Of a stretch of DNA of 64,000 nucleotides, positions 34,127-59,830 are shown piece by piece. The notes under the pieces are model-generated. The model was not told the DNA's origin. It made no database searches and saw only the letters and a list, made by a program, of their open reading frames with translations. Location of the stretch: NCBI GenBank assembly GCA_015066015.1, contig SVPE01000006.1, positions 62,001 through 126,000 on the forward strand, read 5' to 3'. The stretch comes from Oscillospiraceae bacterium (GTDB lineage: Bacteria > Bacillota > Clostridia > Oscillospirales > Acutalibacteraceae). Both the position numbers and the translations under genes were made by a program. Position 1 is the stretch's first letter. Each line of letters opens with the position of its first letter.

Positions 34127-34250
34127 TTTATCATCCCTGAATGTTTTGTATAAATAAATTATATCACAGTAATATTTGTTTTTCAATGTTTTAATCGCTC
34201 ACCGCGGGGCGTCACCTTTCTTGAAAGAAAGGTGGTCCAAAGAACTTTTG

Positions 34251-34299
34251 CACCTTAACAAAAGAGCAGACCTTTCAGCCTGCTCTTTTGTTAAGGTGT
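34251..34299. terminator. Long stem-loop (19 bp)
   Basis: CACCTTAACAAAAGAGCAG...CTGCTCTTTTGTTAAGGTG. Confidence 0.6.
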
Positions 34300-34316
34300 A
34301 AACTTAACCGTTACAT

Positions 34317-34696
34317 CAGCGCGTTCCTGTGCGCTTTAATTTTCAGGCTTAATAGAAGTGTACAGGATGGTGTTTTCTTCGAACGAAGGTGTATGAAAAT
34401 ACTCCGAGAGAGAAAAAACACCAAGAGCCCGAAGAAAAAGAGCAAACCTGAAGGTCTGCTCTTTCTTTTATTCAAGCCGTTAATTAACTTGCTTATCAGC
34501 GCGTTCCTGTGCGCTTTAATTTTCAGGCTTAATAGAAGCGTACAGGATGGTGTTTTCTTCGAACGAAGGTGTATAAAAATACTCCGAGAGAGAAAAAACA
34601 CCAAGAGCCCGAAGAAAAAGAGCAAACCCGAAGGTCTGCTCTTTCTTTTATTCAAGCCGTTAATTAACTTGCTTATCAGCGCGTTCCTGTGCGCTT
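34317..34696 (-). repeat. 180-bp tandem repeat, 2 copies plus 20-bp partial; diverged relative of the core element at 44.5/57.5 kb
   Basis: cagcgcgttcctgtgcgct at 34317, 34497 and 34677 (period 180 bp); reverse strand has CTCTCGGAGTA...TACACCTTCG as in the core. Confidence 0.85.
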
Positions 34697-34706
34697 ATCT
34701 TAAGCC

Positions 34707-44207: not shown

Positions 44208-44319
44208 GGGGAGGAACAACGCGCGAAAGCGCGTTTACCCTAAGAAAAATCGGTTTCGGGAAAGGGAAAACGATTTTTCTTAGGGTATTTGACCCTCAAA
44301 AGGGTCAAAGTTCCTCCCC
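44208..44319. other. Structured four-way-junction element, copy 1
   Basis: Closing stem GGGGAGGAAC/GTTCCTCCCC (44208-44217/44310-44319); arms 44220-44233 (CGCGC-GAAA-GCGCG), 44238-44285 (15-bp stem), 44288-44309 (9-bp stem). Confidence 0.8.
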
Positions 44320-44401: not shown

Positions 44402-44696
44402 AAACCGCGGAATAAATCCGCGGTTTCAGACTGTCGATAAAGTCACAAGAACAACAATGCACAGAAACACTTAAAGAACGTCGATAAAAAATTAAAAACA
44501 AAAACTACAAAGAAAAATGGTCAGGACATCGAATCCCGACCATTTTTGCATTGTTTTGCCATTTTTTCGCCCTCTCGGAGTACCACTGTACGCCTTCGGG
44601 GCGAATAAAAAGGCATCTTGCACCTTTCTCAACAGTCCGACAGCTTGTCGAAAATACTTTTCGACAAGCTGAAACCGCGGAATAAATCCGCGGTTT
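44402..44696 (+). mobile_element. MITE-like structured element, copy A, with 25-bp palindromic flanking duplications
   Basis: aaaccgcggaataaatccgcggttt at 44402-44426 and 44672-44696; interior 44427-44671 begins CAGACTGTCGA and ends TCGACAAGCTG (imperfect TIR). Confidence 0.7.
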
Positions 44697-57336: not shown

Positions 57337-57634
57337 AGGCGCGGATTTTATATCCGCGCCTCAGACTGTCGATAAAGCCGCAAGAACATATATGCGGAAT
57401 AATATATATACATATAAATTAAAGCAAAGATAATAACAATATTGCCAACAAAATCCGGAGGAACATCGAATTCCCCCGGATTTTCGCATATATTTGCCAT
57501 TTTTTCGCCCTCTCGGAGTACCACTGTACGCCTTCGGGGCGAAGAAAAAGGCATCTTGCACCTTTCTCAACAGTCCGACAGCTTGTCGAAAATACTTTTC
57601 GACAAGCTGAGGCGCGGATTTTATATCCGCGCCT
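57337..57634 (+). mobile_element. MITE-like structured element, copy B, with 25-bp palindromic flanking duplications
   Basis: aggcgcggattttatatccgcgcct at 57337-57361 and 57610-57634; interior 57362-57609 shares a 116-nt block (57494-57609) with 44556-44671, one mismatch. Confidence 0.75.
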
Positions 57635-57669
57635 GTTTTTGCCCTTGAATGTGGGGAGTAAAAAATTAT

Positions 57670-57819
57670 GCGGTGAGACTCAACGCGTACGCGTTGTCGA
57701 AAAGAGCATGATAAAGTTGCTTAAAGAGAAAGAGTATAGGTTGTTGGTGTTCGCTGAAGACAGATGTGTGGGTGTTCTTTTCGCCCCGGCTTTCTGTGGA
57801 AAGCCGGGGGTCTCACCGC
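57670..57819. other. Structured four-way-junction element, copy 2
   Basis: Closing stem GCGGTGAGAC/GTCTCACCGC (57670-57679/57810-57819); arms 57681-57696, 57698-57783 (CGAAAAGAGCA/TGTTCTTTTCG), 57784-57809 (CCCCGGCTTTC/GAAAGCCGGGG). Confidence 0.8.
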
Positions 57820-57928
57820 TGCCCGTGATCAGTATAGAAAACAGGCACGGTGTTCGCTAAGCTCTCATAAGGCAGCTTTTATTTTTTTCTACGAAACTGC
57901 GAAAAATTGCATGTGTAGGAAAAGGCAA

Positions 57929-58064: not shown

Positions 58065-59726
58065 TTATTTGTTATTAAAGTCGAATGAAAGCTCTCCGTT
58101 GATAAGGGCGGTCAGAATTGAGATTAAAAGGGTGATAAATCTTATAAGAACAACATAGGGGTTGTTAGTCCATACCTTGTCGGTTTCGTCATCGGGGGTA
58201 ACTTCTGTGAACTTGCCGTTTTCATATTCGTGGAACTGAGGATATCTCTCGTCACTGTGAACGGTAAGAGTACCGTCGGAAAGGAAAAATTCTGTTACGA
58301 TGGGGTCAATCTGAGTAAGATCCATATGTCTGAGATTCTTTGAGAACCAGGTTGTTTCGGGGAAAAGACAGGTGCCTGCATAAACTTTGTTGTCGGGAGA
58401 AAGGTATCTTTCGTCATAATCCTCGAGGGCTCTGATTTCATCAAGCTCTTTATTTGTAAAGGTTTCGCCGATAACCGTACCCTTTGCACCGAGTGAAAGC
58501 TCGGTAACGGTGCCTCTTGCATCGCCGGTGATGTCACTGCCTTCAAAGAAGGGGAAGGAGATGGATCCGTATTTAGCAAGAATAGCGGTCTTCATGCCGA
58601 AGTTTTCTTCACATCTTTTGAGAAGGGAAGCATAGCGAGGCTTGCCGGTCTCTTCTTCTATTTCACCGATAAGCTCGTGATAGTTGTCGATTTTTGTGAT
58701 AAAGTTTGCGTATTTTCCTTCGGGTTCAGTCGTTCCGAAAACGGTAAGCTTTGCCTTGTCGTAGTACTTATCACCGATCATACTCCAGTATGAGGGGAAT
58801 GTACCGTAGGAAACAAGTGCAAGACCGGGAACAACTTCGTCAGCAATTTCTTCGTAGATTTCCTGTATTTTATCAAGTCCCCAACCGAGAACCTTTGCTT
58901 GATTCAGAACTGAAATAAGAACAACTGCTGTTGTTTCAAGAAGGGGATCATCGAAAATATCATTGTCGTTAAGGTACAATGAAACGTATCGGTCGATCAT
59001 ATCGCTGTCAAAAGTAATAGAGCCGGACATAAGAGCCCCGACAACTATATAGCCGTCAAGAGGAGTAGTGTTAAGAGCGAGATTGTTTACTCTGAAGGGA
59101 GCATCATAAAAGCCCTTTTCACTTTTTGCAATATAAGCCATAGCTACATTTGAGCCGTAGCAGCGTGCGTGAATGTTGACCTTTTCAACGCCTTCCTTTT
59201 TGCAGACATATTCAACGAACTGATGAAGCTCATCTGCTATTTCGTAAGGAGAATAACGCCAGTCATAGCGGAAATAGTAGTAGTTGAGTCCGCCTGCGCC
59301 CTTGGAGGGCTTCTGAACGGAATAATCCCAGTCAATTCTGCCGTCGGGGTCAATGCCGTCTTCATTAAGCACGGCATCCTGGTAAACGGGGACGAAGGTG
59401 TCGATAAGAGCCTGAGTGTATTCGCTGTAATCTCCTGAGATAACTGCGGGAAGCAGCTCGCTGATAACCGGCTCTATCTGAGTGAGAATATATTCCTCTC
59501 TTGTCATACCGAGCGGAGTGTTTACGTTGTCAATCTGAATCTTTTTGCCGTTTTCGTCAAGAAGGAAGTTTCCTTCTGCATCGGTTTTGTAAACAGGAGA
59601 GTTCTGCTTGCCGACGATGTAGATTACGGGAAGATTTTTTTCTGATTCAACTCCGATTGCAGCTGCGGGAAGAGCGTAGCCTGTAAGCATAATCAGAGAT
59701 AAAACCAAAGCAATTAGTTTTTTCAT
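58065..59726 (-). CDS. Secreted alpha/beta-hydrolase-like protein (paralog of 38538-40088)
   Basis: Signal peptide; VNIHARCYGSNVAMAYIA; YLSPDNKVYAGTCLFPETTWFSKNLRH; C-term RFITLLISILTALINGELSFD. Confidence 0.7.
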   Translation of the reverse strand: MKKLIALVLSLIMLTGYALPAAAIGVESEKNLPVIYIVGKQNSPVYKTDAEGNFLLDENGKKIQIDNVNTPLGMTREEYILTQIEPVISELLPAVISGDYSEYTQALIDTFVPVYQDAVLNEDGIDPDGRIDWDYSVQKPSKGAGGLNYYYFRYDWRYSPYEIADELHQFVEYVCKKEGVEKVNIHARCYGSNVAMAYIAKSEKGFYDAPFRVNNLALNTTPLDGYIVVGALMSGSITFDSDMIDRYVSLYLNDNDIFDDPLLETTAVVLISVLNQAKVLGWGLDKIQEIYEEIADEVVPGLALVSYGTFPSYWSMIGDKYYDKAKLTVFGTTEPEGKYANFITKIDNYHELIGEIEEETGKPRYASLLKRCEENFGMKTAILAKYGSISFPFFEGSDITGDARGTVTELSLGAKGTVIGETFTNKELDEIRALEDYDERYLSPDNKVYAGTCLFPETTWFSKNLRHMDLTQIDPIVTEFFLSDGTLTVHSDERYPQFHEYENGKFTEVTPDDETDKVWTNNPYVVLIRFITLLISILTALINGELSFDFNNK

Positions 59727-59830
59727 AGGACATACCTCCATATTATATTATTGCTTATATTATACACCTGACCAAAGCGCTTTTCAACTGTTTTTTAAAA
59801 AAATGTTAACTAATTATTACGTCACATTAA

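Follow-up and report, generated by a model that had tools for sequence, protein, structure and literature searches.

A dispersed, probably mobile DNA element that appears to be defined by a four-way-junction shape more than by its sequence

The stretch of Oscillospiraceae DNA analyzed here (64,000 nucleotides, called the window) carries three copies of an element in which a closing stem encloses three abutting hairpins. On balance we favor, without holding it firmly, the interpretation that the element is a dispersed intergenic non-coding DNA sequence, most probably non-autonomous and mobile, that is conserved as a foldable strand. As part of that interpretation, and with the same reserve, the ability of one strand to fold into a four-way junction seems to be conserved far more than the letters are. 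The results below demonstrate multicopy dispersal, a conserved junction, paired Watson-Crick change without a preference for G-T, loops present in both orientations, one empty site, and sequences specific to species within a single genus. No description of such an element was found in the open-access literature that was searched, and it is likely that the element is an undescribed and unusual type of mobile DNA, for which shape is the defining feature and sequence is less so.

The copy under study, copy 2, is a complete four-way-junction element of 150 nt at positions 57670 to 57819 of the plus strand. Its closing stem of 10 bp is formed by GCGGTGAGAC (57670-57679) pairing with GTCTCACCGC (57810-57819). 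Arm 1, CAACGCGTACGCGTTG (57681-57696), is a 7-bp hairpin read as CAACGCG-TA-CGCGTTG and is the counterpart of the GCAACGCC arms of other copies. Arm 2 (57698-57783) has an 8-bp stem, CGAAAAGA (57698-57705) with TCTTTTCG (57776-57783), that encloses about 70 nt and reaches 11 bp once one G-T pair is admitted, and arm 3 (57784-57809) is the 11-bp hairpin CCCCGGCTTTC-TGTG-GAAAGCCGGGG; all parts are given on the plus strand. Gaps at the junction are 0 to 1 nt, as arm 2, arm 3, and the closing stem are contiguous and arm 1 is bordered by a single T on each side. The initial annotation of 57670-57819 had reported these coordinates, the 10-bp closing stem, the three arms, and the absence of a spacer between arm 2, arm 3, and the closing stem, all of which held; it had put the distal region of arm 2 at about 64 nt, compared with the roughly 70 nt enclosed by the 8-bp stem here. 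The predicted fold of the minus strand was exactly the junction (z −7.1). For the plus strand folded as RNA (z −6.4), a rival pairing between arm 1 and arm 2 was slightly better, with the closing stem and arm 3 retained. A search for tRNA and tmRNA gave nothing. A match to a known Rfam family had been named as a possible refutation; the search was run and gave no match at the gathering score anywhere in the 64-kb window, and the sub-threshold matches around copy 2 at loose thresholds were weak, partial, or off the element. A short reading frame of 73 amino acids crosses copy 2, and a coding role for it was set aside because copies do not share a conserved arm-2 interior.

Junctions were located by scanning for three abutting hairpins enclosed by a stem of 8 or more base pairs. 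The scan of the window returned three junctions (44208-44319, 57670-57819, and 61052-61207), compared with one in total when the full window was dinucleotide-shuffled 40 times. Copy 1 (44208-44319, plus strand, 112 nt) belongs to subfamily A and was also matched by model R1 with 122 bits. Copy 3 (61052-61207, minus strand, 156 nt) belongs to subfamily B, is absent from its site in two relatives, and lies between divergent genes for a class I tRNA synthetase (W/Y) and IMP dehydrogenase, upstream of the latter. Within the genome, BLAST and covariance models of both subfamilies identified at least 74 loci, 68 of which (68/74) parsed as near-exact junctions. BLAST with copies 1 and 3 added 10 loci in the genome, all of them exact junctions as well. 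BLAST with copy 2 across 39 genomes returned no match besides itself, and it took copies 1 and 3 and the covariance models to reach the family.

Subfamily A copies are about 110 to 120 nt long and subfamily B copies about 150 to 165 nt. When a model was built from 11 other B copies with copy 2 left out, copy 2 was recovered at 57668-57821 (59.8 bits, E 2.5e-16). Copy 2 was also recovered by the subfamily A model, which did not include it (46.1 bits, E 2.2e-8). These E values are rough, and the genomes are draft assemblies. We place copy 2 in subfamily B, as a divergent member. The earlier claim that copy 2 has the same four-way architecture as copy 1 held in the junction scan; the claim that the two are unrelated in sequence failed in part, given the matches to both models built without copy 2. 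The further suggestion of structural selection or of a structure-defined mobile family was supported by the 74 loci in this genome and by other junctions in at least 10 sister species; a lack of additional copies in relatives, the other outcome named as a refutation, did not occur. Within a subfamily the closing stem and arms retain some sequence conservation, and the letters are not wholly free. At two loci (L059 and L061), A-type and B-type arms are mixed within one copy. A third subfamily in this genome could be represented by L117 17636-17730 and L060 1501-1594, two highly compact junctions that span only about 95 nt and whose arms nearly all have 3-nt loops.

The copies are essentially all intergenic and occur in both orientations. 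Convergent neighbors are the commonest class (20 of the 43 simply classified copies) and outnumber divergent neighbors; other copies have divergent or tandem neighbors. Two relatives (G014 and G042) with the divergent gene pair that borders copy 3 are missing about 200 bp there, copy 3 included, indicating an insertion polymorphism. The edges of this empty site could not be fixed to the base, and the evidence comes from one site only. The neighbor of copy 2 belongs to a multicopy protein family without synteny, and no empty site was established for copy 2. Flanking direct repeats at the 74 loci showed no surplus over shuffles that would indicate target-site duplication, nor were general outer inverted repeats found there beyond shuffles. 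An autonomous version, in the form of an enlarged junction carrying a gene inside arm 2, was not found in the 1.36 Mb sampled, which does not cover the whole genome. Mobility was not observed; it is an inference from dispersal and from a single empty site. As a separate observation, the most alike subfamily A copies (L033, L037, L062, L063, L074, and L080) have a common flank, CGCAATTGTGAATT upstream and TTCACCCC plus TTTATAATCAACC downstream, that includes short repeats of the AATTCTGCATTCTGCA type. Because these copies have further flank in common, a longer composite unit may have spread recently.

Scans for the architecture found junctions with unrelated arms in at least 10 sister species (G003, G004, G008, G010, G013, G016, G017, G018, G021, and G039). 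In four species one such junction family was multicopy; its arms 1 and 3 hardly varied, and its middle arm was free in sequence but paired. G-rich closing stems were alike across different species. No junction was returned from 443 kb of DNA sampled in other genera of this order, and none from shuffles. Sequence searches for A or B copies in the 33 other genomes of the genus found none, except for one structural match. A model search of 347 genomes across the order returned the genome itself and G061, the latter match being a contig-end palindrome; this is a weak negative, as only 10 candidates per genome were scored. Exact-pattern scans of genome collections gave two matches, neither at a junction, and those of viral collections gave none. 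Sampling was partial: outside the window, about 0.2 Mb of this genome was covered, and each other genome contributed some 5 to 300 kb. We conclude that, within this partial sampling, junction sequences are species specific within one genus.

An alignment of 55 subfamily A copies gave 2342 Watson-Crick, 33 G-T, and 116 other cells. The 116 other cells lay mostly in poorly aligned end columns, and dropping four such columns left 42 pair positions. Three or four Watson-Crick types occurred at 27 of the 42 positions and at least two types at 40 of them, and paired changes were seen in all four helices of both subfamilies. Changes on both sides of a stem made up 49% of the differences between the closest copies and rose to about 90% between distant copies; therefore, single mutations arise first and are matched later. 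An A-C pair is the mirror of G-T on the other strand. Selection on an RNA should favor G-U; selection on a DNA structure should not. Among the 2281 cells of the 42 well-aligned positions, 26 were G-T, 17 were A-C, and 19 were other mismatches; 18 copies of a sister-species subfamily added 3 G-T and 4 A-C. Pooled, G-T and A-C cells numbered 29 and 21 (p 0.32), and the G-U preference expected of a structured RNA was not seen. G-T made up 1.1 to 1.3% of cells. Because G-T is not favored over A-C, pairing looks to be maintained at the DNA level, and we infer from sequence alone, without RNA data, that the paired molecule is likely DNA and not RNA.

Arm-2 loops of 5 to 20 nt were found in both orientations across copies. 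Copy 1 and L043, for instance, carry GGGAAAGG, which appears as CCTTTCCC in L038, and L034, L062, and L063 carry CCGCCCAC, which appears as GTGGGCGG in L080. Reverse-complement loop pairs, allowing one base of difference, numbered eight, versus a mean of 0.34 and a maximum of 4 in shuffles, none of 1000 of which was as high; controls with reversed or complemented loops gave no exact match. The 55- to 70-nt interior of arm 2 in subfamily B was on average not alignable between copies above control. Template switching between inverted repeats makes arms alike and inverts the loop (PMC8604942, PMC8794818), and it can create perfect stems in a single event (PMC8794818). The inverted loops are likely the footprint of copying or inversion between the arms of inverted repeats, although they do not discriminate template switching from recombination between arms. 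Because loops occur in both orientations, perfect pairing may owe more to copying between arms than to selection alone; that it is kept largely in this way remains a possibility. These results refine the initial reading in two respects: DNA rather than RNA is the probable paired molecule, and arm-to-arm copying may maintain the pairing.

In the mechanism that we propose, machinery that handles a folded single strand or a cruciform would move or copy the element, so that only foldable copies would spread. Between moves, a mutation in a stem would be copied onto the opposite arm by template switching or by recombination between the inverted arms. Such copying would restore pairing, would at times invert an arm, and would allow fast sequence drift. 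No transposase or other enzyme was linked to the element, and the mobilizing enzyme is unidentified. A bolder reading, which we regard as less likely than not, is that the elements form a genus-wide class of mobile DNA recognized by junction shape and not by sequence, that each species evolves an unrelated-looking version, and that mobilization itself inverts the arms and recopies them against each other. Covariation is usually read as proof of a functional RNA; here it is strong in a dispersed DNA element with inverted loops and without a G-U signature. The element thus appears to be a clean natural case of pairing maintained at the DNA level and a warning for RNA discovery. If the junction is required for its movement, there should be an unknown enzyme able to recognize a four-way DNA junction.

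Several known systems resemble the element in part. REP sequences and REPINs are likewise short, dispersed, intergenic, palindromic, non-autonomous DNAs that fold as single strands (PMC3116915, PMC3733652). REPs, however, are defined by sequence (a GTAG or CGTC tag; PMC3116915, PMC3733652), whereas the sequence of the element here is free; a REPIN consists of two inverted copies of one palindrome, whereas three different arms lie within a closing stem here; and this genome yielded no intact Y1 transposase of the kind in REPIN/RAYT systems. Another comparison is with bacterial MITEs and small mobile repeats of the ERIC, RUP, RU-1, and bcr types (in part, PMC2229807). They too are about 100 to 200 bp long and intergenic, with inverted ends and tens of copies, and the closing stem, which measures 8 to 12 bp in those copies that were listed from this genome, provides the terminal inverted repeat of a MITE. 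Copies of MITEs, however, share sequence and often have a target duplication, neither of which holds across the present family, and paired arms fill the interior of the present element. Like this element, integron attC sites are folded single strands of variable sequence, recognized mainly by shape. An attC site is a single imperfect hairpin with recombination motifs and adjoining gene cassettes, whereas the element is a four-way junction near which no cassettes or such motifs were noticed, albeit without a systematic search. Finally, hairpins corrected by template switching show the same compensatory changes and loop inversion from arm-to-arm copying, but they are isolated hairpins in rRNA genes or coding DNA and not dispersed multi-arm elements (PMC8794818, PMC8604942).

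One alternative is that the element is a structured non-coding or cis-regulatory RNA under selection for RNA folding. In its favor are the paired changes in all four helices of both subfamilies, the plus-strand RNA fold of copy 2 (z −6.4), and the excess of convergent over divergent placement. Against it, G-T occupies only 1.1 to 1.3% of cells with no excess over A-C, the plus strand of copy 2 favors an alternative pairing over the junction, copies also lie between divergent genes and in both orientations, arm sequences in sister species are unrelated, and Rfam gave no match. We consider an RNA unlikely. Another alternative, equally unlikely in our view, is that nested inverted repeats arise, spread, and stay perfect by template switching as functionless palindromes, with neither selection nor an enzyme. 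The loop inversions and the gradual completion of double changes fit such palindromes, as do perfect stems obtainable in one template-switch event (PMC8794818). Mutation alone, however, does not explain the constant order of one closing stem and three abutting arms in dozens of copies and several species, the likeness of G-rich closing stems across species, the restriction, in our sample, to one genus, or the existence of dozens of dispersed copies. An individual palindrome could be kept perfect by mutation alone, but the four-helix order across copies and species hardly could.

A third alternative, which we consider very unlikely, is that these are REP- or REPIN-like elements mobilized by a Y1 (RAYT) transposase. 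The element is indeed intergenic, lacks target duplication, and forms single-strand hairpins. However, the only Y1 match in this genome (G000) was a fragment and none was found in junction-rich G010 or in G017, all of them drafts, leaving a Y1 transposase unsupported as the mobilizer. Moreover, arms 1 and 3 are unlike each other in the listed copies, which does not meet the REPIN arrangement of two inverted REP copies (PMC3116915), and a fixed REP tetranucleotide was not noticed. A role as bidirectional terminators, or as conserved gene-end hairpins of another kind, is suggested by the 20 of 43 simply classified copies between convergent genes but is likewise very improbable, as other copies lie between divergent or tandem genes (copy 3, for example, upstream of IMP dehydrogenase) and termination does not require a multi-arm junction.

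Other repeated sequences were observed in the window. A minus-strand gene at 58065-59741 encodes a 558-amino-acid protein without a Pfam match; it is part of a large multicopy family, with 16 matches in this genome and matches in every one of the 34 genomes sampled from the genus. At 44402-44696 and 57339-57633 lies a second repeated element, about 250 to 270 bp long with the core CTCTCGGAGTACCACTGTACGCCTTCGGGGCGAA, and copies of the core were also present in sister genomes G017 and G014. The same terminator-like hairpin lies on both sides of the element but differs between the two sites, as if the element had duplicated the hairpin it entered, which is one possibility. In its inner hairpin the loop is kept and the stem changes in pairs. 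Lastly, a tandem direct repeat at 34247-34700, with a unit of about 180 bp and strong hairpins, contains a shorter relative of the CTCTCGGAGTACCACTGTACGCCTTCGGGGCGAA core (CTCTCGGAGTA..TACACCTTCG) on the minus strand.
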